Source: Chromatocurvus halotolerans
Lineage (GTDB): Bacteria; Pseudomonadota; Gammaproteobacteria; Pseudomonadales; Halieaceae
NCBI RefSeq assembly: GCF_004340525.1
Contig: NZ_SLWX01000002.1
Coordinates: forward strand, 124,001 to 188,000
Reading direction: 5' to 3'
DNA: 64,000 nucleotides
In this document: one piece after another, positions 22,032 to 40,160 of the stretch
Numbering within the stretch: the first letter of the stretch is position 1
How the letters are laid out: each line of letters opens with the position of its first letter
The notes under the pieces: generated by a model
What the model was told of the DNA's origin: nothing
Seen by the model: only the letters and a program-made list of their open reading frames with translations
The model's database searches: none
Translations under genes and position numbers: made by a program

Positions 22032-22045
22032 TTGACTGACGTCAA
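22032..22045 (+). promoter_or_regulatory. FNR/Anr box upstream of ompW
   Basis: TTGACTGACGTCAA is a perfect palindrome of the FNR/Anr form TTGAY-N4-RTCAA. Its centre lies 106 bases before the ompW ATG. A -10-like hexamer TACTCT (22068-22073) is centred 32 bases downstream, the spacing of a class II FNR-activated promoter (site at about -41.5). OmpW/OprG genes are known FNR/Anr targets in other gammaproteobacteria. Confidence 0.82.
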
Positions 22046-22144
22046 TGTCTGGAAACTGATCTATCGTTACTCTTGCGTCCAGCATTGCATTCCACATTGC
22101 ATTCAAGCGGTACCGCGTCGGTGCCAAAAAAAACGGAGAATAGC

Positions 22145-23613: not shown

Positions 23614-23810
23614 GTCGACGGTCCGTCCTCCTCTCCGCTGTGCGCCTTGTGGTCTTTTTTCTCATCGCTGCTGTCATCGTCGGCAAGAATGCGCCAGCTT
23701 TCCTTGTCCAGGTCATCGTACTGGCCGTTGTCGATGGCCCAGAGCAGAAGACGTATGGCGATTACACAGAATACCAGGGCAATCGGAATCAGCAGATAAA
23801 GGCTTTCCAT
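23610..23810 (-). CDS. ccoS: CcoS, cbb3-type cytochrome oxidase assembly protein
   Basis: Small single-pass membrane protein of 66 residues needed for cofactor insertion into cbb3 oxidase. It has the family pattern MESLYLLIPIALVFC, then AIRLLLWAIDNGQYDDLDK, and a short acidic tail. It lies 13 bases after ccoI and is coupled to the TauE/SafE-like gene. Confidence 0.93.
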   Translation of the reverse strand: MESLYLLIPIALVFCVIAIRLLLWAIDNGQYDDLDKESWRILADDDSSDEKKDHKAHSGEEDGPST

Positions 23811-23823: not shown

Positions 23824-26253
23824 TTACGTTCGGCGCGGTGGACGTACCAGTCGCAGGGAATTGGCGACCACCAGAAGTGAGCTCAGCGACATGCCGATGG
23901 CCGCGGCCCAGGGCGGTATGTAGCCCAGAGCAGCGAGGGGTATGCCAAGCAGATTATACCCTAGTGCCCAGGCGAGATTCTGGTAGAGCGTGCGCCGGCA
24001 CTGCTGTGCCTTGTCGATGATCGCTGTCACCCGGTGCAGGTCTCCGTCCATGATCACGAAGTCTGCCTGGGTGCGCGCGAGGTCCGTGGCGCCGGCAACC
24101 GCAATAGAGGCATTGGCGCGTCTCAGCACGGGAGCATCGTTGAGGCCATCGCCAACCATCAGCACGATGGCCCCCTGCCGCTGAAGCGCGGCGACGTGGG
24201 CACTTTTGTCCTGCGGCGTCATCCCCACATGGATCGCGTCAAATCCCAGGGATCTGCCCATGACCGTGGCCTGTCGAGAGTGATCGCCGGTGACGAGCTC
24301 GAGCCGTGCGCCACGGGATTTCAGCTCCGACGTCACTGCTGTGGCCTCGTTGCGCAGCACATCCTCGAGCGCTATCCAGGCCAGGGGCTGATCGCGCAGC
24401 ACCAGTGCGACCCAGTAGCCTGCCGCGTCGGGTTGCGCGGGCAGTGAGGGGGCAATCTCTCGGCAGTACTCTGCGCTGCCGACTCGGCAGGCGCGACCTG
24501 AAAACGTCCCTGAAACTCCTCGCCCAACGTGGAAAAGCACCTCGCTGACGCTGTCTGCTGGCGCAATCTCTGTGAAACCGCGTGCGATGGGGTGATTGGC
24601 GTAGCGCTGCAGGGCGGCGGCCAGGGCCAGCACGTCCGCGCGCGAGGTATCGCCGAGGCAGAGAACCTGTCCAATGGCCAGCTCACCGCGGGTCAGGGTA
24701 CCGGTCTTGTCAAACAGGATATGCGTGACGCGGGCGACAGACTCCAGGGCTCCCTCGCCGCGCACCAGTACGCCACCGCGGCGCAGGGCATTGGCCGCGT
24801 TGCTCAGGGCTGCAGGTGTCGCCAGTGCCAGTGCACAGGGACAGCTGATGACCAGCACCGAGAGTGCCGTCCACAGTGCCCGCTCCGGCGCAATACCGTA
24901 CCAGACCCAGGCGGTTGCGCCCGTCGCCAGTAGAATGCCACCGATGAACCAGCCCGCAATACGGTCCGCGATCTGCGCGATCGGTGGCTTTTCCGCCGAC
25001 GCGGTTTCGATAGAGCGCTGCAGCGCGGCAAGTCGTGTATCCACATAGCTGCCGCTGGCCGTGATATCTAGCGCGGCATCGGTATTCACCGTGCCCGCGA
25101 ACACCGTGTCGCCCGCCGTTACCCGTCGCGGCAGCGATTCGCCGCTGAAGGCGTCCTCGCGCACAGCGCTTTCGCCGCTTCCCACCACGCCGTCGATGGG
25201 CACGGTATCGCCGGCGCGAACGAGGACGCGGTCGCCCCGCTCCAGTTGCTGGCGCGCCTGCTGCCGCCAGTCATCGCCCCGACGCACCAGCACCGCATCG
25301 GGCAGCGCCGACTCCGCGTCAAACCAGTCCAGGCTGCCGGCGAGGCGCGCCCGCTTTTCGGCGAAGCGTGCCAGCAGCAGCAGAAAGGTGAACATGACGA
25401 CGGAGTCGAAATACACCTGGCCGGTGCCGGTAACCGTGGCATAGACACTGGCCGTGAACGCGAGGCCAATAGCCAGCGCGACCGGCAGATCCATGACCAG
25501 AGCGCCCTGGCGCAGGTGTCGCCAGGCGCTGCTGAAAAAGGGACGCGCCGAGAAACGCACGATAAACGCAGTAACACCGAGGCTGACCACGCGCAGCAGC
25601 TGCTCGTATTCCCGGGCAATGCCCTGCAGTTCACCGGCATGCAGGGCAATGGCGAACATGCCCACCTGCATCATGCCGAGCCCGGCAACCGCGAGGCGGC
25701 GCAGATCCGAGCGATACTCGCGCCGCATCTGTTCCCGCTGGGCGTTGGCATGGAACGGTTTTACGCTGTACCCAAGCGCTGCGACACGGGCAAACAGGCG
25801 ACTCAGCGGGAGACGCTCGCAGTCCAGAACGACGTCCAGTCGCGATTGCGACAGGTTCACAATGGCGCTGTGGACCCCAAAAACCCGGGCCAGGCTCTGC
25901 TCGATCAGCCAGGTGCAGGCGGCGCAGGTCATGCCACCGAGCAGCAGGCGCACGCGAGTCAGGCCGTCGCCATCATCATGACTGAAGGTGGCGGCGAGTG
26001 CCGGATCGTCGTACAGCCGGAACTGCTCCTCGGCACTGGCGTCGCCCGAGCTGCCGTCAGGTCTCAGATTGTACTCGGTGCGCTGGGCATAAAAACGCGC
26101 CATGCCGCTGTCAGCAATCAGCTGGGCGACCGCGCGACACCCGGGGCAGCACATGTCCCGCAGTTCATTGTCGATAACAACACGGAAATTGCTGCCGGCG
26201 GGTACCGGATCACCGCAGTGAAAGCACACTGTGTTTGCGGAGGAGTCGGTCAT
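23824..26253 (-). CDS. ccoI: CcoI, copper-translocating P1B-type ATPase
   Basis: Cation-pumping ATPase of 809 residues that supplies copper for cbb3 oxidase assembly. The N-terminus carries a Cys cluster (CFHCGDPVPAG, CCPGC) followed by a heavy-metal-associated domain with GGMTCAACT (Cys110/Cys113). The core has the CPC metal site (ISCPCALALATPAAL), the phosphorylation motif FDKTGTLT and the hinge MVGDGLNDAPVL. Start is the ATG at 26253, which gives the usual CcoI N-terminus; the open frame runs a further 92 codons upstream into fixH and is ignored. It lies 31 bases after fixH. Confidence 0.95.
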   Translation of the reverse strand: MTDSSANTVCFHCGDPVPAGSNFRVVIDNELRDMCCPGCRAVAQLIADSGMARFYAQRTEYNLRPDGSSGDASAEEQFRLYDDPALAATFSHDDGDGLTRVRLLLGGMTCAACTWLIEQSLARVFGVHSAIVNLSQSRLDVVLDCERLPLSRLFARVAALGYSVKPFHANAQREQMRREYRSDLRRLAVAGLGMMQVGMFAIALHAGELQGIAREYEQLLRVVSLGVTAFIVRFSARPFFSSAWRHLRQGALVMDLPVALAIGLAFTASVYATVTGTGQVYFDSVVMFTFLLLLARFAEKRARLAGSLDWFDAESALPDAVLVRRGDDWRQQARQQLERGDRVLVRAGDTVPIDGVVGSGESAVREDAFSGESLPRRVTAGDTVFAGTVNTDAALDITASGSYVDTRLAALQRSIETASAEKPPIAQIADRIAGWFIGGILLATGATAWVWYGIAPERALWTALSVLVISCPCALALATPAALSNAANALRRGGVLVRGEGALESVARVTHILFDKTGTLTRGELAIGQVLCLGDTSRADVLALAAALQRYANHPIARGFTEIAPADSVSEVLFHVGRGVSGTFSGRACRVGSAEYCREIAPSLPAQPDAAGYWVALVLRDQPLAWIALEDVLRNEATAVTSELKSRGARLELVTGDHSRQATVMGRSLGFDAIHVGMTPQDKSAHVAALQRQGAIVLMVGDGLNDAPVLRRANASIAVAGATDLARTQADFVIMDGDLHRVTAIIDKAQQCRRTLYQNLAWALGYNLLGIPLAALGYIPPWAAAIGMSLSSLLVVANSLRLVRPPRRT

Positions 26254-26284
26254 TGATTGCCGTGCCTGCGCCGGCAGGTTTGAC

Positions 26285-26791
26285 TCAGCGCGGGACTGCA
26301 CGCTGGGCGTCTGTGGTCGCATTTCCGGTGGTGCCGGTGATGCGCCAGTCGCTGCTCTCGCCCGCGTCCAGCAACCAGTGCCAGTTGTCTCCCACAGGAA
26401 CCGGAAGGCGGGCGGCGTAGCGTTCCGGACCGCTGCGACGCAGATCGATACGGATATCCCGGTCGGCCTCCATGGGATGCGAAAGCCGCAGTCGGAGCTC
26501 GGCAACCGCGGGCAGATCCTCGGTAACAACTGTGACAGTGTCTTCTGCTATCGCCAGACGGGCTGCATAGCCCCTTTCCCGGGCACGCTCGTCGCGTTCA
26601 AGTTGCCGGTTGATGGCGAGGCCGTCCTTGTAATAATCATCCGCCACCAGATCGTCAGAGCCGCGCACGGCGATGATCATGGTGGTGATGGCCGCAATAA
26701 CGACCGAGCCCGGCAGTACGATCAGGAACCAGGGCCAGAACTGTCGGTACCAGGGTTCCGGCGTACTGTCGTCAATCCGCGATTTCAGCAT
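26285..26791 (-). CDS. ccoH: FixH/CcoH-family protein
   Basis: Membrane protein of 168 residues with one N-terminal helix (PWFLIVLPGSVVIAAITTMI) and a periplasmic domain beginning DDLVADDYYKDGLAINRQLERDERA, the hallmark of FixH/CcoH. CcoH is required for stable assembly of cbb3 oxidase. The ATG overlaps the ccoG stop by one base (TAATG). Confidence 0.9.
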   Translation of the reverse strand: MLKSRIDDSTPEPWYRQFWPWFLIVLPGSVVIAAITTMIIAVRGSDDLVADDYYKDGLAINRQLERDERARERGYAARLAIAEDTVTVVTEDLPAVAELRLRLSHPMEADRDIRIDLRRSGPERYAARLPVPVGDNWHWLLDAGESSDWRITGTTGNATTDAQRAVPR

Positions 26792-28206
26792 TACCGCGGT
26801 CTCAGAAAGCGGCTGTCGGCTGAGATACGCAGCGAGGGCATGTCGCTGGAAATGGCCTCGAAAGTGATTTCTGTGCCGGGGGCATCCAGGTGCCGAGGCT
26901 GCGCACGTACTCGCAGGGTGATGGAGCGCACCTCGCCGGCGTCCAGTGCGTAACTGGCGTCGCCGATGATCTCGGCCTCGTCAATACCGTTGACGCTGAG
27001 GTCAAAGTCGTGCGGCTGGGTATCCATGTTCACCAGCTGGATGCGATACATGTTTTCGATATCGCCCGCCTGTGTCTCGACAAACAGGTTGTTGCGATCG
27101 CGGATGATGGTCATTTCCAGGGGCACCCGCGACACCACGTTGTAGCCGAATACGCCGATCATGAGGGTCAATACCGTGAGATAGCCGATGACCCGCGGCC
27201 TGGCCCAGTGCGTGGGTTTGCCTTCCAGCGCGTTTTCACTGGTGTAGCGGATCAGACCCGGCTCGTAGCCCATCTTGTCCATCACGGAGTCGCAGGCATC
27301 GATACACAGCGCGCAGCCGATGCACTCGTACTGCAGACCCTGACGGATATCGATGCCGGTCGGACAGACCTGTACGCACAGGTCGCAATCGATGCAGTCG
27401 CCGAGGCCCAGGGCTGCCGGGTCCGCGGAGCGCTTGCGCGAACCGCGCGGCTCACCGCGGGCCGGATCGTAGGAGACGATCAGGGTATCGCGATCGAACA
27501 TGACAGACTGGAAGCGCGCATAGGGACACATGTAGGTGCATACCTGCTCGCGCATCCAGCCGGCATTGATATAGGTGGCGAGAGTGAAGAACAGCGTCCA
27601 GAGGGCCTGCCACTTGCCCGTGGACAGGGTAGCCAGCTCAACCGTCAGTTCACGCACCGGGTAGAAGTAGCCGACGAAAGTCAGACCGGTCATAAAGGCG
27701 ACGAACAGCCAGCCACCGTGCTTGGTGGCCTTGCGCATGGCCTTGCCGACAGTCCAGGGCGCCTTGTCCAGCTTGATGCGCTGATTGCGGCTGCCCTCGG
27801 TCTTCTGCTCGATCCACATGAAGATACTGGTCCACACGGTCTGCGGGCAGCTATAGCCGCACCAGACCCGGCCTGCCACCACGGTAACCGCGAACAGGCC
27901 GAAGGCCGCAATAATGAGCAAAAAGGCCAGCAGCGGAAAATCCTGTGGCCAGAAGGTCAACGTGAAGATGTGGAACTTGCGCTCAGGCAGATCGAACCAT
28001 ACCGCCTGGCGGCCATTCACCGAGATCCACGGCAGCAGGAAATAGGCAATCAGCAGTGGCCAGCCGGTATACAGGCGCAGGCGCTGGTAGAAGCCTTCTA
28101 TTTTGCGCGTGTAGATTTTCTCGCGCTTCTGGTAAAGATCGAGCTCGGCAACTTCGGCAGGCGCGAGCTCTTCAACGTCGATCAGTTCGGGGTCTTTGTC
28201 AGCCAT
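26791..28206 (-). CDS. ccoG: CcoG (FixG), cbb3 oxidase accessory iron-sulfur protein
   Basis: Membrane iron-sulfur protein of 471 residues, implicated in copper reduction for cbb3 oxidase assembly. The first half has about five membrane helices, with VWCGYSCPQTVWT and EQVCTYMCPYARFQSVMFD. Two 4Fe-4S motifs follow: CIDCDLCVQVCPTGIDIR and CIGCALCIDACDSVMDKMG. The C-terminal ~120 residues form the periplasmic FixG_C domain. It lies 67 bases after ccoP. Confidence 0.96.
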   Translation of the reverse strand: MADKDPELIDVEELAPAEVAELDLYQKREKIYTRKIEGFYQRLRLYTGWPLLIAYFLLPWISVNGRQAVWFDLPERKFHIFTLTFWPQDFPLLAFLLIIAAFGLFAVTVVAGRVWCGYSCPQTVWTSIFMWIEQKTEGSRNQRIKLDKAPWTVGKAMRKATKHGGWLFVAFMTGLTFVGYFYPVRELTVELATLSTGKWQALWTLFFTLATYINAGWMREQVCTYMCPYARFQSVMFDRDTLIVSYDPARGEPRGSRKRSADPAALGLGDCIDCDLCVQVCPTGIDIRQGLQYECIGCALCIDACDSVMDKMGYEPGLIRYTSENALEGKPTHWARPRVIGYLTVLTLMIGVFGYNVVSRVPLEMTIIRDRNNLFVETQAGDIENMYRIQLVNMDTQPHDFDLSVNGIDEAEIIGDASYALDAGEVRSITLRVRAQPRHLDAPGTEITFEAISSDMPSLRISADSRFLRPR

Positions 28207-28273: not shown

Positions 28274-29149
28274 TCAGTTGCCCAGGCCGTAAATGTAAGC
28301 GGTGAGAATGTGGATCTTGTCTTCCGTGAGATTCTCGCCATAAGCCGGCATCTTGCCATTGCGGCCAACGCGCAGGGTATGTGCAATCTGCTCCTCTGTG
28401 CCACCGTACAGCCATATGCCGTTGGTCAGGTTGGGTGCACCCATGGCCACGTTGCCCTTGCCTTCAGCGCCGTGGCAGGCCACGCAGTAGGTCTGGAAAT
28501 GCTTCTCACCAAGTTTGGCCTTTTCCGGATCGGCGCTGCGCCGGTTTAGCGACAGCACGTATTCGGTGGTTTCAGCGATACCGTCGTCGCCCAGTATGTC
28601 TCTCCAGGCAGGCATGGCGGCGTTGCGCCCGTTTACCAGCGTGTGCTTGATGGCGTCGGGTGTGCCGCCCCACAGCCAGTCCTCGTCTGCCAGATTGGGG
28701 AAGCCATAGGCACCGCGTGCGTCGAGTCCGTGGCACTGGGAGCAATTGTTGCTGTAAAGCCGCTGGCCCATGCGCATGACCTTGGAGTCCTGGGCGATTT
28801 CCTCAACAGGCAGCGCCAGATAGCGATCGCGCATGGCGCGAAACTGCGCCTCCGCGGCCGCGACTTCCTCATCGTGCTGCTCGATCTGGGTCCAGCCCAG
28901 AACGCCCTTGAAGTTGCCCATGCCAGGGTAGAAGATCAGGTAACCGATTCCCCAGACAATCGTGATGACGAACATGGCAAACCACCAGGCAGGGAGCGGG
29001 TTGTCGTATTCCTCGATGCCATCGTGGCTGTGTCCCGTGGTCTGGTCTATTTCCTTGGGCTGTTTGCGGTTGGCAAACAGGATCCAGACGAGACCGGCGA
29101 TGGTCACGATCGTCAGGACAATGATCCAGCTGCTCCAGAAGGTCGTCAT
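28274..29149 (-). CDS. ccoP: CcoP, dihaem c-type cytochrome subunit of cbb3 oxidase
   Basis: Subunit III of the cbb3 terminal oxidase, 291 residues. It has an N-terminal helix, then FixP_N motif HSHDGIEEYDNPLPAWW and a second helix, followed by two cytochrome c domains. The haem sites are NNCSQCHGLDARG and TYCVACHGAEGKG, with Met ligands in MPAW and KMPAYG. It accepts electrons and passes them to CcoO. Its start overlaps the ccoQ stop by four bases (ATGA). Confidence 0.96.
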   Translation of the reverse strand: MTTFWSSWIIVLTIVTIAGLVWILFANRKQPKEIDQTTGHSHDGIEEYDNPLPAWWFAMFVITIVWGIGYLIFYPGMGNFKGVLGWTQIEQHDEEVAAAEAQFRAMRDRYLALPVEEIAQDSKVMRMGQRLYSNNCSQCHGLDARGAYGFPNLADEDWLWGGTPDAIKHTLVNGRNAAMPAWRDILGDDGIAETTEYVLSLNRRSADPEKAKLGEKHFQTYCVACHGAEGKGNVAMGAPNLTNGIWLYGGTEEQIAHTLRVGRNGKMPAYGENLTEDKIHILTAYIYGLGN

Positions 29150-29331
29150 TGCTGCTTTTCCTCTTGCTCGCGCTGCGGCTCGTCCGGCGCGGATTCTTCG
29201 TCGGCGAACGGCAGGTTGGCTGCCTCATCGAAAGTCTTCTTGCGCTTGCTGCTGTAGGCCCAGATGCACAGTCCGATAAAGGCCATGAACAGGAATAGCG
29301 TGCTCAGTCCACGCAGATCATTAATATCCAT
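29146..29331 (-). CDS. ccoQ: CcoQ (FixQ), small subunit of cbb3 oxidase
   Basis: Single-helix membrane protein of 61 residues (MDINDLRGLSTLFLFMAF IGLCIWAYSSKRKKTF) with an acidic C-terminal tail; it stabilises the cbb3 complex. The ATG at 29331 is chosen over an upstream reading that would overlap ccoO. It sits between ccoO and ccoP, seven bases after the former. Confidence 0.93.
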   Translation of the reverse strand: MDINDLRGLSTLFLFMAFIGLCIWAYSSKRKKTFDEAANLPFADEESAPDEPQREQEEKQQ

Positions 29332-29338
29332 ACCACTC

Positions 29339-29947
29339 CTAGCGGCGCGACTGTATGAGTGTGCCCATACCCTGCAGGTAGGCGACCAGCGCATCGATTT
29401 CCTTCCTGCCGTTTACAACCGAGCTTGCGTTGGCAATGTCATCATCGGTGTAGGGCACACCGAGCCTGCGCAGTGCGCGCATTTTTTTCGGCGTCCGTTC
29501 AGCGTTGATTTCGTCCCGGAACAGCCACGGGTAGGCCGGCATGTTCGACTCGGGGACGACATCCCGCGGGTTGTACAGGTGTGCCCGATGCCAGTCGTCG
29601 CTGTAGCGCTCACCGACACGGGCCAGATCAGGCCCGGTGCGCTTGGAGCCCCACAGGTGAGGATGATCGTAGACAAACTCGCCGGCGACGGAATAGTGGC
29701 CGTAGCGTTCGGTTTCGGCGCGCAGCGGGCGAATCATCTGCGAGTGACAGGTATTGCATCCCTCGCGAATGTAGATGTCACGGCCCTCAAGCTGAAGCGC
29801 CGGGTAGGGCTTCAGCCCTGCGACCGGCTCGTTGGTTTCCTTGGAGAACATCAGCGGGACCAGCTCGACCAGGGTGCCGAAGCTGATCGCCACAATGATC
29901 AGAATGATCATGATGCCGACGTTCTTCTCGACCTTTTCATGTTTCAT
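29339..29947 (-). CDS. ccoO: CcoO, monohaem cytochrome c subunit of cbb3 oxidase
   Basis: Subunit II of the oxidase, 202 residues. It has one N-terminal membrane anchor ([19 protein letters not shown]) and a haem c site [13 protein letters not shown]. The conserved [16 protein letters not shown] and the Met ligand region [12 protein letters not shown] are also present. It relays electrons to CcoN. It begins 11 bases after ccoN. Confidence 0.96.
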
Positions 29948-29958: not shown

Positions 29959-31398
29959 CTAAGCCGCGCTGGCGCTGGTTGCCGGTACCTGTACAGGCAC
30001 ATCGCGGCGAGTGGTCATATAGACGTTATAGGCCATGATCAGCATGCCGCCGAGGAAGATGGCGCCGCCGAGCACCCGCACCACGTAACCGGGGTAGCTG
30101 GCGGCAACACCCTCCACGAAGGCGTAGGTGAGCGTGCCATCCTGGTTGTAGGCGCGCCACATCAGGCCCTGCATGATGCCGTTCACCCACATGGATGCGA
30201 TGTAAAGTACCGTGCCGATGGTCGACATCCAGAAGTGCACGTTGATCAGACTGATGCTGTACATGCGTTCACGATTATAGAGCACGGGGATCAGGTGATA
30301 GAGCGAGCCAATGGTGATCATGGCCACCCAGCCCAGCGCGCCCGAGTGCACGTGGCCGATTGTCCAGTCCGTGTAGTGCGACAGGGCGTTCACCGTCTTG
30401 ATAGCCATCATCGGGCCCTCAAAGGTCGACATGCCGTAGAAAGACAGGCTGACCACGAGGAAGCGCAGGATGGGGTCGTCACGGAGTTTGTGCCAGGCGC
30501 CGGAGAGGGTCATGATGCCGTTGATCATGCCGCCCCAGGACGGCGCCAGCAGGATGATGCTCATCACCATACCCAGGCTCTGTGCCCAGTCGGGCAGTGC
30601 CGTATAGTGCAGATGGTGTGGACCGGCCCAGATGTACACGGCGACCAGCGCCCAGAAATGCACGATACTCAGGCGATAGGAGTATATGGGGCGATCGGCC
30701 TGCTTGGGCACGAAATAATACATGATGCCGAGAAAGCCGGCGGTCAGGAAAAAGCCCACCGCGTTATGTCCGTACCACCATTGCACCATCGCGTCGACGG
30801 TGCCGGCATACGCCGAGTAGGACTTGGTCATGTCCACAGGCATGGACGCGCTATTGATGATGTGCAGCACGGCGACCGTGACGATGAAGGCACCAAAAAA
30901 CCAGTTCGCCACGTAGATGTGGCTGGTCTTGCGCTTCGTGATTGTGCCGAAGAAAACCACCGCGTAGGAAACCCAAACGATGGCGATCAGGACATCGATC
31001 GGCCACTCCAGCTCGGCGTATTCCTTGGAGCTGGTGAGGCCGAGAGGCAGTGTGACAGCAGCTGCGACAATGACGGCCTGCCAGCCCCAGAAGGTGAAGG
31101 CGGCGAGCCGATCAGAGATCAGCCTCACCTGGCAGGTGCGCTGGACAACGTAATAGGACGTTGCAAAAAGCGCCGAGCCGCCGAAAGCAAAGATAACGGC
31201 GTTGGTATGCAGTGGTCGAAGACGGCCAAAGCTGGTCCAGGGCAGGTCGAAATTCAGCGCCGGCCAGGCCAGCTGCGCCGCGATGAGGACGCCGACAAGC
31301 ATGCCGACGATGCCCCAGACGACGGTCATGATCGCGAACTGTCGCACCACCTTGTAGTTGTAGACGGGGTGCTCCAGGTCAGAATTGAGCTCAGTCAT
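29959..31398 (-). CDS. ccoN: CcoN, catalytic subunit I of cbb3-type cytochrome c oxidase
   Basis: The 479-residue haem-copper oxidase subunit that reduces oxygen with high affinity. About twelve membrane helices are expected. Haem and copper ligands are visible: [12 protein letters not shown] (low-spin haem His), [15 protein letters not shown] and [25 protein letters not shown] (copper His residues and the His/Tyr region), and [12 protein letters not shown] (haem b3/b His pair). No FNR box is seen in its own 83-base upstream gap; the one ahead of the Yip1 gene is the likely control site for the whole unit. Confidence 0.97.
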
Positions 31399-31481
31399 GG
31401 TGTTGTTCCGTTCCGATGGATTCGAGCGGGTTGAATGCGTGGTTGCGTAATTCTAGTGGTTTCCGCGCCGGAATGGTGGTC

Positions 31482-32087
31482 TCAGCCATCAGTGAAAGCC
31501 GGAGCCGCCCCGTAATCCCAGGCAAGGATCGAAATCACCATGATGCTGACCAGCACCACCATGGCAATGGCCAGCACGGCGCTGGAGAACAGGAAGCCGC
31601 GCTCCTCCGGGATTTTCATCATGATGGGGATGCCAAGATACATGAGGTAGACGGACCAGCTGATGGCGACAACACCGATCAGCAGGTCGAGCCAGAGCGT
31701 GGGATAAAATCCCACGAGGCCAGTCACGAACAGCGGCGTCGCGGTCAGGCCCGCGATCACGATTCCCTTGGGCACGGTCGACTCCGCGCCGTAGGTTTGC
31801 GACATCCAGTGAATGAAGTAGCCGATGATGGCGACGCTGCCCACCATCACCAGGTAAAAAAGCAGGCTTATCTGGAAGGCACTCTCCGTTGTCAGGCGCA
31901 CAACGTTACCTTGAAGCCCCGTGGTCCAGCCGACCTTGCTGGTGCCGAAATACCAGGCGATGGCGGGGAACAGCGCCAGAATGCATGGGTATAGCACGAG
32001 GACGTTGCGCGACTTTTCCGGAAGCTTTGCGACAATGCGCCATTGTGTGCTGGGTCTGAGCAGGAGACCGATGGTGTGCTGGATCAT
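31482..32087 (-). CDS. Yip1-family membrane protein preceding ccoNOQP
   Basis: Integral membrane protein of 201 residues with about five helices (for example VLYPCILALFPAIAWYFG and FQISLLFYLVMVGSVAIIGYF). It matches the bacterial Yip1/DUF1282 family, whose function is not known. The ATG at 32087 gives a normal N-terminus (MIQHTIGLLLRPSTQWR). It is 83 bases upstream of ccoN on the same strand with no promoter-like element between, and an FNR box lies 61 bases before its start. It is thus probably the first gene of the cbb3 operon, suggesting a role in oxidase assembly or membrane environment (inference). Confidence 0.82.
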   Translation of the reverse strand: MIQHTIGLLLRPSTQWRIVAKLPEKSRNVLVLYPCILALFPAIAWYFGTSKVGWTTGLQGNVVRLTTESAFQISLLFYLVMVGSVAIIGYFIHWMSQTYGAESTVPKGIVIAGLTATPLFVTGLVGFYPTLWLDLLIGVVAISWSVYLMYLGIPIMMKIPEERGFLFSSAVLAIAMVVLVSIMVISILAWDYGAAPAFTDG

Positions 32088-32120
32088 GTGTCGGGAATCC
32101 CCGTGGGTTTCAGGTTGCAT

Positions 32121-32161
32121 AGTGTAGCGGCAACGTGCCGCCGTTTGTTGATGCAGGTCAA
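32121..32161 (-). promoter_or_regulatory. FNR/Anr-dependent promoter of the Yip1-ccoNOQP unit
   Basis: TTGATGCAGGTCAA reads on the + strand at 32148-32161 (reverse complement TTGACCTGCATCAA), a full TTGAY-N4-RTCAA site. On the minus strand TACACT (32126-32121) is a -10 candidate, centred 31 bases from the box. That is the spacing of class II FNR promoters. The site is 61 bases before the Yip1 start. Confidence 0.84.
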
Positions 32162-32249: not shown

Positions 32250-33005
32250 CTATTCGCCGCTGGTAAGCTGTCTCAGGGCCGCTTCGTCGAGAATACGGAT
32301 TTCACGGTTGCTCACGTCAACGATTTCTGACTTCTGCAGCCTCGTGAACACCCGGCTGACGGTTTCCACGGTGAGGCCGAGATAGTTGCCGATATCCACG
32401 CGGGACATGCTCAGGCGAAATTGCGTCGCACTGAGACGACGGCGGGCGTTGCGCATTGAGATGCTCAGAAGCAGCGCGGCGATGCGCGCATCCGCAGAGC
32501 TTTTGCTCAGCAGCGTAATCAACTGCTGGTCCTCGGTGATCTCCCGGCTCATGAGCTGGAAGAAATGCCGCTGTAACTGCGGCATGCTGGCGCTCAGCTT
32601 CTCCAGCGACGAGAACGGGATTTCGCAGACCGCCGAGGTTTCGAGCGCGCGTGCCGATGAAGCATGACGACTCTGGCTGATGCCATCCATGCCGACAATC
32701 TCTCCCGGAAAATAGAACCCGGTGACCTGCTCCCGACCGTCGTCAGTCATGCGGTAGGCCTTGAGCGTGCCCGACCGTACCGCGTAGACCGAGCCGAAGT
32801 CATCGCCCTGGCGATAAAGATGCCCACCTTTCTGCAGGGGACGCCCGCGCTGGATGATTCTGTCAAGCTCCTCGATATCGCGGGATTCCAGAGAAAAAGG
32901 TAGACAAATGCTGTTCAGACGACAGTCGCTGCAGTTGGCGGAAAACTCATGGCTGCAGGCCAGCGGCTCCTGGCGACTGACCTTGATCGGCGCTTGCGAT
33001 GTCAT
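32250..33005 (-). CDS. anr: FNR/Anr-family oxygen-sensing transcription factor
   Basis: Crp/Fnr-type regulator of 251 residues that holds a 4Fe-4S cluster under low oxygen and then binds TTGAT-N4-ATCAA sites. Cluster ligands are present: the N-terminal NCSDCRLNSIC (C-x2-C-x5-C) and a fourth Cys in SAVCEIPF. The recognition helix LGLTVETVSRVFTRL has the E..SR triad of FNR. ATG at 33005 is preferred; a GTG at 33014 is in frame. It lies between hemN and the Yip1-cbb3 unit, as in Pseudomonas where anr, hemN and cco genes are neighbours. The three boxes in this window are its likely targets. Confidence 0.95.
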   Translation of the reverse strand: MTSQAPIKVSRQEPLACSHEFSANCSDCRLNSICLPFSLESRDIEELDRIIQRGRPLQKGGHLYRQGDDFGSVYAVRSGTLKAYRMTDDGREQVTGFYFPGEIVGMDGISQSRHASSARALETSAVCEIPFSSLEKLSASMPQLQRHFFQLMSREITEDQQLITLLSKSSADARIAALLLSISMRNARRRLSATQFRLSMSRVDIGNYLGLTVETVSRVFTRLQKSEIVDVSNREIRILDEAALRQLTSGE

Positions 33006-33106
33006 GGAATGCACCCCGAAACTGAGGTGTAAACGCTATAGCGCTACTGCCCCGGAGTCAAGGTCTCTGCCGCTCCCCCCTCCCGGGGCGGCGATCCGGC
33101 CGTGCC

Positions 33107-34534
33107 TCACACGGTGGCGGAAAAACGGCCGCCCGACGCCACATCAGCGGCGAGATAACCATCAAAAGGCATGCAGATATTGCGCAGGAAGGGCCGGCCG
33201 GCGGGCTCTACCCGGAGTTCGGTGTCGCCCAGTGTCACCAGGCCGTCGCCTGCCAGCGGGGTGAGTGCGTCCAGCGCGTCGGCAAAATGGCGGTCAAAGT
33301 CGACGCCGAAGCGCGTGCCGGTGTCTGCCTTGTTCAGGTGCAGGTCACAGATAAGTGACATGATCACGTGGCGCCGCAGCCGGTCTTCGGCGTTCATTTC
33401 GTAACCGCGCCGCAGCGGTAGCTCGCCCTGGTCCACCAGACCGTAGTAACTGTCCAGCTGAGGTGCATTCTGCAGGTAGAAGTTGCCGATCTGGCTGATA
33501 GCGGACACGCCGAGGCCCAGGGTGTCTTCCGCCAGACGCAGCGAGTAGCCCTGGAAGTTGCGCTGCAGTCTGCCGCGGGACTGGGCCTGCGCCAGTTCGT
33601 CGTGGGGCAGCACAAAGTGATCCATGCCAATGTGCAGGTAGCCCGCGCTCTCCAGCGTTGATGCGATGAGCTCCGCCAGGCGCAGCTTGTCTTCCGGTGA
33701 GGGAAGGGCCAGCCGGTCAATCGCTCGCTGTGAGGAGAATCGCTCGGGCAGGTGGGCATAGTTGTAGCTGGCAATTCGGTCCGGGCGCAGCCGCAGCACA
33801 TCCTCCAGCGACTCTTCCATGCTGTCGACGGTCTGGAAGGGCAGGCCGTAGATGAGATCGAAGCTGAGAGAGCGGAAGCCGTGCTCGCGCGCCGCATCCA
33901 CCAGGGTGGCGACGCTCTCGGGTGTCTGTATCCGGTTGATCGCGCGCTGCACGCGTGGGTCGAAATCCTGGATACCGAGACTCAGTCGATTGAAGCCGAG
34001 CCCCTTGAGCAGGGCAATGGTCGACACATCGACCGTTCGCGGATCAATCTCGATGGCGTATTCCCGCTCAGCTGTGCTCTGGAGGGCGAAGTGCCGGGAC
34101 AGTGCGTGCATCAGGCGGGTCATTTCACCGCTGTCGAGATAGGTTGGCGTGCCACCGCCCCAGTGCATCTGGGTGATGGGCCGCCGGTCGCCGACAATTT
34201 TTGACTGCATGGCGATCTCGAGCTCCAGGCGGTCGAGGTAATCACTGGCCACGCCGCGTCGGCGCGTTACCACTTTGTTGCAGGCGCAGTAATAGCAGAT
34301 GTCGTTGCAGAACGGCACGTGAATATACAGCGACAGTGGGCGCGTGCCGGCATCCGTTTCCGCCTGCCAGTCGAGGTAGCGTTCCCTCGGGAAACTCTCG
34401 CTGAAGTGTGGCGCTGTCGGGTAGGACGTGTAGCGCGGCCCGCGGCAGGCGTACTTGCGCGCCAGTGCAATGTTCGCGTCGCCATGCGCTGGTTTTTCCT
34501 TCTGCGGGATCACAAGGGGCTGTGTGTGTTGCAT
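33107..34534 (-). CDS. hemN: Oxygen-independent coproporphyrinogen III oxidase HemN
   Basis: Radical-SAM enzyme of 475 residues that decarboxylates coproporphyrinogen III to protoporphyrinogen IX without oxygen, supplying haem for cbb3 oxidase at low oxygen. The cluster motif FCNDICYYCACNK (CxxxCxxC plus the extra Cys of HemN) lies near residue 70. GGGTPTYL, RLSLGIQDFD and the HemN C-terminal domain follow. It is preceded by its own FNR box and followed by the anr gene on the same strand. Confidence 0.96.
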   Translation of the reverse strand: MQHTQPLVIPQKEKPAHGDANIALARKYACRGPRYTSYPTAPHFSESFPRERYLDWQAETDAGTRPLSLYIHVPFCNDICYYCACNKVVTRRRGVASDYLDRLELEIAMQSKIVGDRRPITQMHWGGGTPTYLDSGEMTRLMHALSRHFALQSTAEREYAIEIDPRTVDVSTIALLKGLGFNRLSLGIQDFDPRVQRAINRIQTPESVATLVDAAREHGFRSLSFDLIYGLPFQTVDSMEESLEDVLRLRPDRIASYNYAHLPERFSSQRAIDRLALPSPEDKLRLAELIASTLESAGYLHIGMDHFVLPHDELAQAQSRGRLQRNFQGYSLRLAEDTLGLGVSAISQIGNFYLQNAPQLDSYYGLVDQGELPLRRGYEMNAEDRLRRHVIMSLICDLHLNKADTGTRFGVDFDRHFADALDALTPLAGDGLVTLGDTELRVEPAGRPFLRNICMPFDGYLAADVASGGRFSATV

Positions 34535-34570: not shown

Positions 34571-34612
34571 AGGCTAGCAGTGGTATTGGTTGTCCGCGTT
34601 GATTTACGTCAA
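34571..34612 (-). promoter_or_regulatory. FNR/Anr-dependent promoter of hemN
   Basis: TTGATTTACGTCAA at 34599-34612 matches TTGAY-N4-RTCAA exactly. On the minus strand TAGCCT (34576-34571) is the -10 candidate, centred 32 bases away. The box centre is 71 bases before the hemN ATG. hemN is an FNR/Anr target in many proteobacteria. Confidence 0.85.
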
Positions 34613-34631: not shown

Positions 34632-37600
34632 CTAGGTTTCGAGTGCCTCGAGTTCACGCGTGACTTCCGGCAGTTCCCGCGGCATCCCGACGCCCCATCC
34701 CTGAAGGTAGTCGATGCCCAGCTCGCGCAGGGGCTCGATGATATCCAGCGTCTCCACGCACTCGGCGATGGTTTCCTGACCCAGAAAATGCGCCAGGTCA
34801 TTGATGGACCGGACCATGGCATGGTCGGTCCTGTTGGCGAGAATATCCCTGATGAAGGTGCCGTCTATCTTGACGTAGTCCACCGGCAGTTCGCGCAGGT
34901 AGCTGTAGCTGGCCAGGCCGGTGCCGAAGTCGTCGAGCGAGAATTTGCAGCCGATATTGCGCAGGGTGCGGACGAAGTCGACCGCCTTGGTCAGATTCTC
35001 GATGGCACCGGTCTCGGTGATTTCGAAGCAGATCTTGCTGGTGCCGACACCGAATTCCGAGATCTGCTCCAGCACGTAATCGGTAAACGTGTCGTTGGTC
35101 AGGCTGCTCCCGGAGAGATTGATGGACAGCTGTGGCACGACCTTCTGCATGTCCATCAGGCTGGAAATCCACTCGCAGACCTTGCGCACCACCCAGCGGT
35201 CAACCAGGTTGATATAGCCGAAACGCTCGGCGGAGCGGATGAACTCCGTGGGCGACAGCAGGCTGCCGTTGTCCTGACGGATCGACAGCAGAATTTCATA
35301 GTGATGGGACGCCGGTCTGCTGCCGTCCATGGCGCTCTGCACGATCGGCTGGGCGCGCAGCACCAGGGTGTCGGTGGCGATGGCGTCTTCCAGCTGCCGC
35401 TGCGACTGCGTTTTTTCCCGCTGGTATGCAATCAGCTGCTGCTCGTCGACATCAAACTGAACGCAGCGGTCGCCGCCATGCTCCTTGGCAACGCGCCCGG
35501 CGTCCCGCGCCTGGCGCAGCACCTCGTCGGCGTCCACGGTTGACTGCAGGATTGGCGCGACGCCGATGGACGTGGTGAAAGAGACTTCCTCGCCAGCGAC
35601 AGTGATGCTGCTGTCGCTGATATCGCTGCGCACCCGGTCGGCGAACACCATGGCTTCGTCAATGGCGCGATAGGCGAGAAGAATGCCGAAGGTATCGCCT
35701 TCAAGGCGGGCCGCGAGGGACCGTTTTTCATTCAGCTGGCTGAGCAGGCGGGCAAACTCCGCCAGCACCTGGTCGCCGTCCACTTCGTCGTAAACATCGT
35801 TCACCAGGTGAAAACTGTCGATATCCAGGTGCAGGAAGGCATGCGCGGCATCGTGTCGCTGGGCGTGGTGTACCGAGCGCTCAATCTGGCGCTTGAGCGA
35901 TTCACCATTGATCAGGCGCGTGACGCGGTCACGGTTGCGCTTGAAGCTAAGGCGCTCCTGAGCGCCCGCCAAAGTTCCGTAGACGCTCTGGTTGAGCACC
36001 GACATTCGGTCGACGGAGCTGGGCGGCTTGAGTCCCTGACTCAGCTTGCGGGCCAGCCGGATGCGCGATATCTCCGCTACCTTCTGCCCCAGCTCGTTGA
36101 CGAATGCGTAGCGCTCCCTGTCATCGCTGATCCATACCAGGCGCATGCGACGGCGGAATCCCTGCTTGTCGCGGTAGCTCATGATGGTGCCGATCTGCAG
36201 CTGCTCTACGCGCTTGACCCAGCGGTTGAGTCTTGGCAGCTGCTCCAGCCGCGCGCGGGAGATGCCGGTTTCTCCGGCTGATTCATGAACGGCGTAGGTT
36301 TCCAGCGGCACTTCACCGCGCAATATTTGCGACAGCTCTTCCAGCGTTTGCTCGTGACCGAGGTTGTCCGGTTGCGCCGATCGGATGTCTTCTTTCAGCC
36401 CTCGAACCGCGGGTGCCAGCTCGCGAAACGCGTCCGCGGGCTGGTCACCGCGCTCAACGCTGTTCAAGGCAGACAGGATTTTCTGCAGAGCTCCCACCTG
36501 ATCCTGCCAGGCCTCGGACTCAACGCCCTCGCGCACGGCGATCTGGACCAGAAGATCGCGCCAGCCGGCATCCATGAGGTCGAGAAGAACCCGCGGCGCC
36601 GAGGGCGGCTTGATGAAGGTCCCCAGCAGCTGCTCGACGGACTGCTGGGCCTGCTGCAGTCGTTCCTGGCCTTCCATGGTGCTGACAACGCGCTCGATGT
36701 TCTTGCGAAGTGCGGTTTCCTGCTGCGTGACCAGTCTGTCAAGATTCTTCAGTGCGGTCTCGAAAACGCCTGCGTCACCGTCATAGCTCCCGGCAATGTC
36801 ATCGACGATGGCCCGGACTTTTTTCTCCAGCACGCGATTCGGGAAATTCTCTGCGGTTGCCAGCTGCGACAGCTTGTCGAGCATCTGGTGCGCCGGATGT
36901 TCGGGGTCGGCAAAAAACCTTGGCTCCTGCAGCGATAGCCGCGCCAGCGGTATGCGCAGCTGGTCGAGAGTGGGCTTGACGTCGTCCGCCACGTCCACGC
37001 TGCCGCGAATGGTGCTGAAGACGTTGTCGATGAAGTCGAGGCGGTTGGAACTCTCTACCTGCAGTTTGCTGCCGGCAAGTGCAGGGAGCTGGCCGGAATG
37101 TTGCTCAAGCAGTTCGCGCAGGGACTGCGAGCTGCCAGCACTGCTTATCCAGTCGGGGTGCTGCTGTAACTGCAGCAGGGCCTGAATCACCGTTGCCGGT
37201 TCTGCCCGCGGCGCGTCAGTGGACTCCGCCGAGCTTTCAGCCTCGGCATCCGCAGATGAGCTGTCTTCGGCATGACGCGCCGACAGCGCATGCACGACGG
37301 CGTCATACATGGCATCGTGTTTCATGCGCGGCTGCACGGGACCCTGGGCCGCGGCGAAGTCTACCCCGCGGTCTGGGGTGATGGGATCGGTAGCTCGCCG
37401 CCCCTGGCGGCCGCGTCGCTCCACAGCGGGCCTTGCCGGCGCGTCTCCGCTGCCGCTTGCAGCATCCTTGCCGTCGGCTGCGCTGACCTGTGCGTCGCCG
37501 GAGTTTTCGTTGTCGTCATCTCTCTCCGGGCTCCTGCGCTTCTGCACCGGTCGCCGACTGCTGCTGTCCATGATGGAGCCGGTGTTGTAGAGCTCATCCT

Positions 37601-38552
37601 CCAATCCTGGCCGCAGCCCGTCGCTGGCCAGGCCGTTGTTGAGGCGGGCGTAGAATCCGCGGAGTTTATTTATCCATTCGCGGTGGAAGAACTTCAGGCT
37701 GTCCTGGATGACGGTAGGACTGAAGTCCAGCCGGTGCAGCGCGTCGCGAAAGCTGCGACACAGGTATGCCGGATGGAAGGGGGTTTTGACGCGCGCCGCT
37801 CCCAGGGCTAGCAGGTCACCAGTGCGCAGCGTCAGGCTTTCCAGGTCAACCCGGTACAGGTTTACCGCGTCGGTCGTAATGCGGTCGAGGGCCAGTTTTT
37901 CCTCCATCTCGCTGAGCCCGACCAGGTCGAGCTCACTGGCGTCCGTTTCTTCCAGAGCATCCTCGCCTCGTCTACTGCGGGGTTTTTCCGGCTGCGCAAG
38001 TTCGTCTGCCAGCTGCTCCAGCATTCCGGAAATAAAGGCCTTGTTGTTACGCTTCAGACTGTTCAGCGCGTCGTAGTGCTCATGGCGCCCGGAAATGCCA
38101 TGCTGTGGCGAGGTAGACAGATCGAACAGGTGATCGCCGAGGCTCAGCGTGAATGCGCGCAGACTGTCACCGAGCAGAGCGATACCCTCGGCGTTGAATT
38201 TCTCGCGGTATCTCGCAGCGTCACCGGCTGTCAGGCGATGTTTTCCCAGCATCATTCCCAGCGCCCGGGCGCTGTCATCGTCCAGCCCCTCGGTCACCGT
38301 GACGTCCAGGCCATGGCCGAGACTGCCGTTGAAGACCACGGAAAGTCGCGCATCCGGTGTGCCGGCACCGCCGGGATGGAACACGGTGAGTGCCGCGACC
38401 TCGATATCGCGCCAGTTCTCCTGTACCGGGTGCTCGGCAAAGAACAGGAGCGCATGAATTCCCCTGACCGCCAGTTTTCCGCGGTAGACACCGCCGCCCG
38501 GCAGGTGCAGTTCGGCGCTGTGAGGCGCGTCGGGTAGGGCTTTTTTATCCAT
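34632..38552 (-). CDS. DUF1631-GGDEF-EAL protein, probable c-di-GMP phosphodiesterase
   Basis: Very large signalling protein of 1306 residues, with no signal peptide or clear membrane segment. About residues 1-850 are a DUF1631-type region, with a low-complexity, Ser/Ala/Glu-rich stretch in the middle and a PilZ-like fragment (RMRLVWISDDRERYAFVNELGQ) near its end. A GGDEF domain follows (about 870-1040) in which the signature is EGDTF at 951-955, so cyclase activity is unlikely; no RxxD inhibition site is seen. The EAL domain (about 1060-1300) keeps its key residues: YEILL, LSINLS, EITETG, DDFGTG, VKIDGTFI and AECVE. Phosphodiesterase activity or c-di-GMP binding is therefore likely. Start ATG is at 38552; the longer open frame runs into the divergent symporter gene. 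Confidence 0.85.
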   Translation of the reverse strand: MDKKALPDAPHSAELHLPGGGVYRGKLAVRGIHALLFFAEHPVQENWRDIEVAALTVFHPGGAGTPDARLSVVFNGSLGHGLDVTVTEGLDDDSARALGMMLGKHRLTAGDAARYREKFNAEGIALLGDSLRAFTLSLGDHLFDLSTSPQHGISGRHEHYDALNSLKRNNKAFISGMLEQLADELAQPEKPRSRRGEDALEETDASELDLVGLSEMEEKLALDRITTDAVNLYRVDLESLTLRTGDLLALGAARVKTPFHPAYLCRSFRDALHRLDFSPTVIQDSLKFFHREWINKLRGFYARLNNGLASDGLRPGLEDELYNTGSIMDSSSRRPVQKRRSPERDDDNENSGDAQVSAADGKDAASGSGDAPARPAVERRGRQGRRATDPITPDRGVDFAAAQGPVQPRMKHDAMYDAVVHALSARHAEDSSSADAEAESSAESTDAPRAEPATVIQALLQLQQHPDWISSAGSSQSLRELLEQHSGQLPALAGSKLQVESSNRLDFIDNVFSTIRGSVDVADDVKPTLDQLRIPLARLSLQEPRFFADPEHPAHQMLDKLSQLATAENFPNRVLEKKVRAIVDDIAGSYDGDAGVFETALKNLDRLVTQQETALRKNIERVVSTMEGQERLQQAQQSVEQLLGTFIKPPSAPRVLLDLMDAGWRDLLVQIAVREGVESEAWQDQVGALQKILSALNSVERGDQPADAFRELAPAVRGLKEDIRSAQPDNLGHEQTLEELSQILRGEVPLETYAVHESAGETGISRARLEQLPRLNRWVKRVEQLQIGTIMSYRDKQGFRRRMRLVWISDDRERYAFVNELGQKVAEISRIRLARKLSQGLKPPSSVDRMSVLNQSVYGTLAGAQERLSFKRNRDRVTRLINGESLKRQIERSVHHAQRHDAAHAFLHLDIDSFHLVNDVYDEVDGDQVLAEFARLLSQLNEKRSLAARLEGDTFGILLAYRAIDEAMVFADRVRSDISDSSITVAGEEVSFTTSIGVAPILQSTVDADEVLRQARDAGRVAKEHGGDRCVQFDVDEQQLIAYQREKTQSQRQLEDAIATDTLVLRAQPIVQSAMDGSRPASHHYEILLSIRQDNGSLLSPTEFIRSAERFGYINLVDRWVVRKVCEWISSLMDMQKVVPQLSINLSGSSLTNDTFTDYVLEQISEFGVGTSKICFEITETGAIENLTKAVDFVRTLRNIGCKFSLDDFGTGLASYSYLRELPVDYVKIDGTFIRDILANRTDHAMVRSINDLAHFLGQETIAECVETLDIIEPLRELGIDYLQGWGVGMPRELPEVTRELEALET

Positions 38553-38693
38553 GCTCTCTGGGCATTGGCCGAGGGTATGCGTCGCGTCCGGTATAGCCGG
38601 GCACGATAGCGTGCGAGGCGCCTGCACACAAGTGATCAAGATGCCCCGTCCTTGAGCTATGCTTAGACAGAACAGCAGGAGCACGGGCCATCC

Positions 38694-40160
38694 ATGTTTT
38701 CCGGGACTACTGACATTCTCGCCGTGCTCGGCCTGTACTTCTGTTTCATGCTCGGCATTGGTTTCTGGGCCCGGCGCAGCCACGATTCCGCCTCCGGCTA
38801 TTTTCTGGCAGGGCGTCGCCTGCCCTTCTGGGTTGCAGCCTTCAGCATGAACGCCACGGGCGAAAGCGCCTGGCTGATCCTGGGGCTGTCTGGCGTTGCC
38901 TATCTCACGGGGGTGCAGGCGCTCTGGGTGGTAGCGGGCGAGGTGCTGGGAGTGGCGGGTGCGTGGCTGCTGGTAGCAAGGCGGCTCAACGCCGCATCCC
39001 GCGAGTCTGCCACGATTACCGTCCCCGACTTTCTCGGTCAGCGATTCCCGGCTCAGGGAAAGCCTGTTCGACTGCTCGCGGTGGCGATTATTCTGAGCAT
39101 GGCCTGCGCCTATATCGCCGCGCAGATGCTTGCCACGGGCAAGGCCTTCAGCGTTTTTCTGGGTTGGGATTACGCCACCGGGGTCTGGGTCGGTGGACTC
39201 GTGACTGTCGCCTACACGGCGTTCGGCGGCTTCAAGGCCGTGGCCTACACCGACGCTGCCCAGGCCATGCTGATGCTATTTGCCCTTGTGGCGGTGCCTG
39301 CTGTCGGCATTCACGCCATCGGAGGTCTTGCCGCACTGGGGCAGGGGCTTGCTGACGCCGACGCCGCCCTGTTGCTGCCCTGGTCGCTCGAGGACGGCAG
39401 TCTGGTGGCGATGATTGTGATCGCCAGCGGGCTGGCCGTCGGGCTGCCTTTCCTCGGTGTGCCGCAGCTGCTCGTGCGTTTCATGGCGATTCGTGAAACG
39501 CGGGACGTGCCGAAAGCCGCAGGCATGTCCATCGTCGTTATTCTGCTGTTCGACCTCGGCGCGGTGGCGACAGGGCTGGTTGGGCGTGTTTTGTTCCCCG
39601 GGCTCGAGGATGCGGAAACCGTCATGCCGGAGCTGGCCCGATCCCTCTTTCCGCCGCTTGTTACCGGCATTCTGGTAGTCGCCGTACTGTCGGCAGTGAT
39701 GTCCACGGTAAGTTCGCTGCTGAATCTCGCGTCCTCTGCCATTGTTCACGACCTCTATGGACAGTTTGCACGTCGCTCCGACGCCGCGAGGCGCGAGGCG
39801 GGTATCGGTGCCTGGGTCACCCTCGCTATCGGTATTGCGGGCTGCCTGATTGCCCTGCGCGGGGGTGGCGTGATCTTTTCACTGGTTCTCTTCGCCTGGA
39901 GCGGCCTCGGCGCTGCCTTCGGTCCGGTTGTTCTGTGCGTACTGCACTGGCGCGGTACCACGGGCCCGGGTGTCATCGCCGGCATGGTCACCGGGTTCGG
40001 CACCACGGTGCTGTGGGTCCTGCTGTTCAAGGAGGCCAGTCATGGGCTATATGAAATGGTTCCCGCGTTCATCGCCAGTCTGGCCATGACGATCGTGGTG
40101 AGTCGGCTGACGACTCGCGTGGACTCAAGCCCCGAGGCCTTACCCTCTGAGAGGGCGTAA
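38694..40160 (+). CDS. Sodium:solute symporter family transporter (SSS)
   Basis: Inner-membrane Na+-coupled transporter of 488 residues with about thirteen helices. It has the family pattern YFLAGRRLPFWVAAFSMNAT followed by GESAWLILGLSGVAY, the VAYTAFGGFKAVAYTDAAQA segment (Na+-binding region) and VAVLSAVMSTVSSLLNLASSA, which correspond to the PutP/SglT core. The substrate is not predictable. CAGGAG lies before the ATG. It is 28 bases upstream of a Tat-exported amidohydrolase, so the pair probably hydrolyses a substrate outside the cytoplasm and imports the product. The gene is divergent from the DUF1631 gene. Confidence 0.88.
   Translation: MFSGTTDILAVLGLYFCFMLGIGFWARRSHDSASGYFLAGRRLPFWVAAFSMNATGESAWLILGLSGVAYLTGVQALWVVAGEVLGVAGAWLLVARRLNAASRESATITVPDFLGQRFPAQGKPVRLLAVAIILSMACAYIAAQMLATGKAFSVFLGWDYATGVWVGGLVTVAYTAFGGFKAVAYTDAAQAMLMLFALVAVPAVGIHAIGGLAALGQGLADADAALLLPWSLEDGSLVAMIVIASGLAVGLPFLGVPQLLVRFMAIRETRDVPKAAGMSIVVILLFDLGAVATGLVGRVLFPGLEDAETVMPELARSLFPPLVTGILVVAVLSAVMSTVSSLLNLASSAIVHDLYGQFARRSDAARREAGIGAWVTLAIGIAGCLIALRGGGVIFSLVLFAWSGLGAAFGPVVLCVLHWRGTTGPGVIAGMVTGFGTTVLWVLLFKEASHGLYEMVPAFIASLAMTIVVSRLTTRVDSSPEALPSERA

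Follow-up and report, generated by a model that had tools for sequence, protein, structure and literature searches.

A Yip1-family membrane protein encoded at the head of a cbb3 oxidase operon under predicted FNR control: a candidate accessory factor for heme-copper oxidases

In Chromatocurvus halotolerans, a gene for a Yip1-family membrane protein (yip1) is, we suggest with moderate confidence, the promoter-proximal gene of an FNR-controlled cbb3 oxidase operon, and its product an accessory factor for the biogenesis or stability of heme-copper oxidases. The operon position of yip1 and its predicted control by FNR are well supported by comparison with related genomes. From the same comparison we infer co-transcription of yip1 with ccoN, activation by FNR in vivo, and the biogenesis role; a contact between Yip1 and oxidase subunit I is our guess. 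Control of a cbb3 operon by FNR or Anr is already known, and the link to Yip1, its breadth, and the second oxidase are new.

The window (the whole stretch of DNA that was analysed, 64,000 nucleotides) carries the cluster on its minus strand in the order hemN, fnr, FNR box, yip1, ccoN, ccoO, ccoQ, ccoP, ccoG, ccoH, ccoI, ccoS, and a DsbD_2-type gene. The features, in the direction of transcription, are:

34599-34612, minus strand: perfect FNR-type box upstream of hemN, the second box of the cluster (G000:C2:158599; one mismatch to the strict pattern, perfect to TTGAYNNNNRTCAA)
33107-34534, minus strand: hemN, oxygen-independent coproporphyrinogen III oxidase (TIGR00538, 2.4e-156)
32250-33014, minus strand: fnr, anaerobic regulator (NF008365 (Fnr), 291 bits, cut-off 228)
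32148-32161, minus strand: FNR box before yip1, TTGACCTGCATCAA on the gene strand and TTGATGCAGGTCAA as read in the window (pattern match; position conserved in relatives)
32121-32126, minus strand: putative -10 hexamer TACACT, spaced 21 nt from the box as in class II promoters (spacing profile in relatives)
31482-32087, minus strand: yip1, encoding a membrane protein of 201 residues, at the head of the cco operon (PF04893, 3.8e-32; alignment; structure model)
31399-31481, minus strand: gap of 83 bases between yip1 and ccoN, with a TAGAAT hexamer at 31450-31455 and no FNR box
29959-31398, minus strand: ccoN (TIGR00780, 1.3e-231)
29339-29947, minus strand: ccoO (PF02433, TIGR00781)
29146-29394, minus strand: ccoQ, as the listed open reading frame, with the FixQ match from residue 22 on (PF05545, 1e-12)
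28274-29149, minus strand: ccoP (TIGR00782, 4.5e-90)
26791-28206, minus strand: ccoG (TIGR02745, 3.2e-166)
26285-26791, minus strand: ccoH (PF05751, 8e-33)
23824-26256, minus strand: ccoI, copper-type P-ATPase (TIGR01511, 427 bits, cut-off 397)
23610-23810, minus strand: ccoS/FixS (PF03597, 1.4e-18)
22891-23613, minus strand: DsbD_2-type membrane protein, cluster end (PF13386, 3.7e-48)

This is the layout of a cbb3 cluster, ccoNOQP followed by ccoGHIS, and the Yip1 gene lies directly before it, as an earlier reading of this DNA made without database searches (the sequence-only reading) had stated. The product of the last gene we take to be SafE-like. The same oxidase genes, with an FNR-family box in class II layout, are found in FNR/Anr-controlled ccoNOQP-GHIS clusters such as cco2 of Pseudomonas aeruginosa, a cbb3 operon under Anr (PMC5697931). 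Here, hemN and fnr adjoin the cluster and, unlike in cco2, an extra gene, yip1, stands between promoter and ccoN.

The yip1 reading frame extends from an ATG at 32087 to a stop at 31482. Its product matches the entire PF04893 profile (positions 1-173 of 173) with 112 bits against a curated cut-off of 28.6, which places it in the Yip1 family. An alternative upstream TTG at 32174 would give a protein of 230 residues, but the 201-residue start is preferred because Met is present there in all 25 aligned family proteins. The PF04893 (DUF1282) family presumably includes E. coli YohC. A full-length Pfam match joins the protein here to this family, which also includes the eukaryotic YIPF proteins; the tie to an oxidase operon sets this protein apart from other family members, whose genes in many genomes lack it. 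The same genome contains a second Yip1 (C10, 46 bits), which has no match to the A2 profile at 1e-3; its locus (3.5 kb) includes neither cco nor cta genes.

A structure model of Yip1 (pLDDT 92, pTM 0.87) is all-helical, with two short N-terminal helices followed by long ones, and suggests that the chain crosses the membrane five times, starting from an N terminus on the inner side. Foldseek found no match to this model in the PDB with E <= 0.001, a second structure comparison gave a best Z of 5.2, in the range common for unrelated helical models, and the sequence profile matched two PDB chains, with E of 0.56 and 0.94. We base no mechanism on these results.

Gly, Pro, Trp, and Tyr make up most of the residues conserved across cco-linked (86 rows), cta-linked (4), and unlinked (32) Yip1 proteins. 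(The rows omit L044, L055, L057, L059, L061, L062, L156, L163, the edge loci, the Microbulbifer loci, and the second copy in genome G121.) No Cys or His exceeds 85% in all three groups. Nearest to that mark among the His residues is H4, at 81, 100, and 100%, and given this fair conservation it may serve as a ligand. H93 is present in 93% of the cco-linked and 78% of the unlinked proteins, and half of the four cta-linked proteins have Phe instead, which rules it out as a universal metal or heme ligand. Since no Cys or His passes 85% in all groups, a scaffold fits better than a carrier of metal or heme.

The box in front of yip1 has one mismatch to TTGATNNNNATCAA and none to TTGAYNNNNRTCAA. Taken alone, it is weak evidence, because such matches are not rare in the window: the strict pattern with up to two mismatches occurs 18 times where 11.9 are expected, and 6 of 100 shuffles reach 18. 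The 3.9-Mb genome contains 14 perfect TTGAYNNNNRTCAA sites, compared with 3 for a reversed control pattern, and three of the 14, those before ompW, yip1, and hemN, lie within 12.6 kb. Thus, contrary to the sequence-only reading, the yip1 box is not the only FNR box. No other perfect one lies between hemN and the last cco gene, but perfect boxes also precede hemN and ompW, and a one-mismatch match lies within ccoN (30398).

Conservation in the relatives settles the predicted yip1 box as a real site. In the 250 bp that precede yip1, perfect boxes are present in 32 of 79 loci (0.14 expected) and boxes with at most one mismatch in 45 (2.4 expected), where the expectations come from first-order Markov resampling and L093, with too little upstream sequence, is left out. 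The box in relatives is mostly found 74-97 bases before the Yip1 start. It is followed by a -10-like hexamer (up to two mismatches to TATAAT) at 21 nt in 30 of the 45 loci, at 22 nt in 12, and at one or the other in 41; the remaining distances between 10 and 39 nt are each seen in 0 to 6 loci. The proposal that TACACT is a -10 element at class II spacing is supported by this profile. Together, the palindromic TTGAYNNNNRTCAA box, the -10 candidate 21 nt away, and the presence of fnr give the arrangement of a class II FNR promoter.

Beyond the family, the box accompanies the oxidase operon. In the wider Gammaproteobacteria, it is present at 11 of 14 ccoN-adjacent Yip1 loci, lying upstream in 10 of them and in the gap in 1, and at 0 of the 44 loci in the wider surveys where Yip1 is not adjacent to ccoN (two places counted twice; 42 distinct), which indicates that FNR control is a property of the cco operon and not of Yip1. 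When it is inside that operon, Yip1 is predicted to share the control. The suggestion of co-control by FNR is supported for the many relatives with a box before yip1, but the predicted control follows the cco operon, and several clades have no box. Parahaliea, Luminiphilus, and most Halioglobus loci retain the yip1-ccoN pair without a well-placed one. At the Parahaliea loci L070, L077, L079, and L097, tblastn also finds no hemN or fnr upstream (L079 has a one-mismatch match at -183), and therefore another regulator is likely there. Among loci where yip1 lies away from the cco start, one-mismatch matches occur in L128 (-101) and L141 (-240), and ten others (L125, L130, L131, L133, L135, L136, L138, L139, L140, L142) have no box with at most one mismatch. 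Boxes at -213 to -280 in L039, L041, L042, and L043 could serve a divergent gene.

The sequence-only reading saw no promoter in the 83 bases between yip1 and ccoN. A promoter scan of this gap is indeed empty, and its only match (9-of-12, 0.4 expected) falls in the terminal part of yip1 itself. However, the gap contains the TAGAAT hexamer, with no recognisable -35 or FNR box, and this hexamer is also present in relatives L004 and L006. In addition, a box is found in the gap of three named loci, all Spongiibacteraceae, as a second box: a perfect one in L127 and one-mismatch versions in L120 and L121. A weak internal promoter may exist between the two genes. By eye, the gap in the window, L004, and L006 also holds a small hairpin-like repeat followed by CTAGAATT, which may represent a weak internal promoter, a processing site, or chance.

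Within Halieaceae, yip1 and ccoN are present or absent together. Among 120 family genomes, 67 have both, 52 have neither, and a single one has ccoN alone; all 67 Yip1-positive genomes thus carry ccoN. The one exception, G060, has a cut ccoN that begins at base 1 of its contig. (For ccoN in the 68 genomes, 63 matches are over the cut-off and 5 are split or truncated.) Joint absence is seen even in genera that otherwise carry both genes (g5, g11, g12, g14, g24). The Fisher value for co-occurrence, 1.6e-33, ignores the shared descent of the genomes. In 64 of the 67 genomes, yip1 and ccoN lie side by side on the same strand, and in the other three they are on separate contigs: ccoN starts at base 31 of its contig in G041 and at base 2 in G024, whereas in G007 it is yip1 that lies close to a contig end, stopping 166 bases short of it. 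Conservation of the pair, on which the sequence-only reading had staked its proposal, is therefore clear in the family and extends to half of the other Yip1-bearing genomes of the class sample, as detailed below. Gene order can nevertheless be kept by inertia, and the genomes compared share descent and are thus no independent cases.

The comparison of loci covered 80 named ones, from Halieaceae, Spongiibacteraceae, Microbulbifer, and others. Yip1 is labelled adjacent to ccoN in 66, near cco genes in 4, at a contig edge in 2, and elsewhere in 8; L069 is additionally adjacent by a short match. In L125, L128, and L133, yip1 is downstream of ccoP-G-H-I rather than before ccoN, and Pfam places a DsbD_2 gene between ccoI and yip1 in L128. 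The same ccoI-DsbD_2-yip1 look is seen by eye in L125 and in the short contig L130. Seven Microbulbifer loci (L131, L135, L138-L142) have Yip1 away from cco genes and no perfect FNR box; in L131 and L139, the two inspected, yip1 has an aminotransferase-type gene as a neighbour (for L131 confirmed by PF01063). A linkage of yip1 to fnr rather than to ccoN has one case in its favour, L136, where hemN-fnr-yip1 is not followed by ccoN and ccoI is farther upstream. This linkage is not favoured, as tblastn finds no fnr by yip1 in the Parahaliea loci and in a number of further ones, and the place of fnr is taken by a CcoI-type ATPase gene in several loci of the class sample.

A class sample of 232 genomes includes 31, counting C. 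halotolerans itself, with an A1-like Yip1. In 15 of the 30 others (14 loci plus the second copy in G121), representing 12 different family labels, yip1 is directly before ccoN. Of the 31, 29 have ccoN (30 counting G255, with a truncated adjacent ccoN), compared with 99 of the 201 genomes without Yip1. Conversely, 99 of the 128 ccoN-bearing genomes lack an A1-like Yip1, which shows that cbb3 oxidases do not generally require it and that it is at most accessory. Yip1 would thus be an additional factor that has become tied to an oxidase in certain lineages. On a tree that used 26 of the 80 named loci (L061, the duplicate places L156 and L163, and the second G121 copy were left out), the loci labelled adjacent group together, and the label must change 7 times, 3 of these changes being forced by starred branches. 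A phylum survey found a Yip1 match in 59 of 299 genomes. None of its 72 matches in 58 other genomes is within 5 kb of a listed ccoN, ccoN is elsewhere in 40 of 56 genomes checked, and one match alone, in G587, follows ctaB. The class survey, with 15 of 30 adjacent, was drawn evenly from a larger group, and the phylum survey, with 0 in 58, from fewer families. Among 144 alphaproteobacterial genomes, 8 have a PF04893 match at E <= 1e-6, and these 8 loci have no cco or cta neighbour within flanks of ~1.5 kb.

Yip1 is also encoded with a second heme-copper oxidase. In G247, G587, G262, and G121, ctaA, ctaB, and yip1 (aa3 oxidase genes and the Yip1 gene) follow one another on one strand, with distances from the ctaB match to the yip1 match of 201, 131, 127, and 163 nt, respectively. 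In G247 and G587, the same-strand cluster also includes ctaD, whose product passes the CtaD cut-off. Genome G121 carries a Yip1 gene after ctaB and also a second, more diverged copy directly before ccoN:

L178, 7228-9328, and L058, 1501-3075: the Yip1 genes of G121, each beside a different heme-copper oxidase cluster

These four copies are among 42 distinct Yip1 loci that are not adjacent to ccoN. By a rough estimate, about one gene position in 100 borders an oxidase cluster, and the chance expectation is well under one genome in 30. Convergent cta neighbours (ctaB ~0.8 kb off in G239, ctaE in G225, ctaA in G625) were excluded from the count of operon partners, and 7 of 87 handles (G151, G349, G467, G521, G527, G551, G557) were left out of the cta-neighbour analysis. 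The theme of oxidase assembly or stability, raised by the sequence-only reading, is strengthened by these four genomes. As might be expected of a biogenesis factor, Yip1 is encoded with oxidase genes in several lineages; it is not present wherever the oxidase is, given the many ccoN-bearing class genomes that lack it.

A pathway consistent with these data can be proposed. At low oxygen, FNR, encoded just upstream, would bind the box at 32148-32161 and activate the class II promoter before yip1, and the transcript would run through yip1 into ccoNOQP. Yip1, predicted to be a multi-spanning inner-membrane protein with five transmembrane passes, would then most likely hold or protect the core subunit in the membrane during insertion of heme and copper. 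The subunit served would be CcoN, or CtaD where yip1 travels with ctaA-ctaB. The residue pattern and the two oxidase contexts lead us to favour such a membrane scaffold for core-subunit assembly over a metal carrier. More tentatively, this branch of Yip1 could be a dedicated membrane chaperone for C-type (cbb3) and A-type (aa3) core subunits, and some genomes would have a distinct paralogue for each of the two oxidases. If so, this would be the first function for a prokaryotic Yip1, and the family perhaps began as assembly factors for membrane complexes.

Evidence against a role in oxidase biogenesis is that many class genomes with ccoN lack an A1-like Yip1 and that many close Yip1 homologues have no oxidase neighbour. 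An unlikely alternative builds on these observations, namely that yip1 is a passenger, a general membrane gene left in an ancestral operon with ccoN whose product is unrelated to the oxidase. Close homologues do lie elsewhere in many other gammaproteobacterial genomes, some without ccoN (our guess is that Pseudomonas-like and enteric-like genomes are among them), and the 99 class genomes with ccoN and without Yip1 point the same way. A mere passenger, however, is harder to reconcile with the 52 family genomes, from several genera, that lack both yip1 and ccoN, with the other position of yip1 in the same cluster in L125, L128, and L133, and with the copies after ctaA-ctaB, including the two in G121.

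A quite improbable reading is that Yip1 moves a solute or ion needed for oxidase maturation, such as copper or a heme precursor, across the inner membrane. It draws on a review that considers YIPF proteins as possible channels or transporters (PMC6682643), on the need for MFS transporters by an E. coli oxidase (PMC10588857), on the CcoI-type ATPase gene that is divergent beside yip1 in several distant loci, and on the well conserved H4. Yet Yip1 has no conserved Cys, and H93, so common in the cco-linked proteins, gives way to Phe in half of the cta-linked ones. Finally, Yip1 might adapt the membrane to respiration at low oxygen, through its lipid packing or its domains, with no specificity for the oxidase. 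Its eukaryotic relatives are mainly found in Golgi membranes (PMC6682643), but we regard this as very improbable, since specific linkage to ccoN and to ctaA-ctaB would then be unexpected. An accessory role in biogenesis remains the reading we prefer.

CcoH, CcoS, CtaG, and Surf1 are membrane or membrane-bound oxidase maturation proteins, several of which are encoded with the oxidase. We know of no relation of Yip1 to these or to CcoI/SenC; compared with them, Yip1 would be accessory and lineage-restricted, and its action is proposed from gene context. CcoI/SenC likewise serve oxidase maturation (PMC8475189). Precedent for uncharacterised membrane proteins needed by a heme-copper oxidase comes from YhjE, YdiM, and YfcJ, which are required for the E. 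coli bo3 oxidase (PMC10588857), although these MFS proteins belong to a different superfamily from Yip1. According to a 2019 review, no function had been reported for prokaryotic Yip1 (PMC6682643), and in another paper a DUF1282 protein is simply listed among changed genes (PMC8360965). Among open-access papers, we found none that joins Yip1 with ccoN or cbb3. Gene order, promoter, and co-absence tie this branch of Yip1 to one enzyme, and elsewhere it is tied to a second, related one. If the proposed role is true, respiratory assembly has an accessory component hitherto undescribed in this place, and the finding may hint at the ancestral role from which the eukaryotic Yip1 proteins arose.

Several observations concern the surroundings of these genes. 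In distant gammaproteobacteria, the yip1-ccoN pair is divergent from a CcoI-like P-ATPase gene in L172-L174, L179, and L181 (domains checked for L173), and such a gene is within a few kb of the pair in L175, L176, and L180; the pair and the ATPase gene may share a common control region there. At the end of the cco cluster in the window is an ompW gene (22142-22834, plus strand; PF03922) with a perfect FNR-type box (22032-22045) in front, and ompW also adjoins yip1 in relative L128. Upstream of hemN, a gene for 1383 residues (34632-38783, minus strand) appears GGDEF/EAL-like by reading of its sequence. A GGDEF/EAL gene is also found near the cbb3 operon of Congregibacter litoralis, where c-di-GMP signalling has been speculated upon (PMC2654016).
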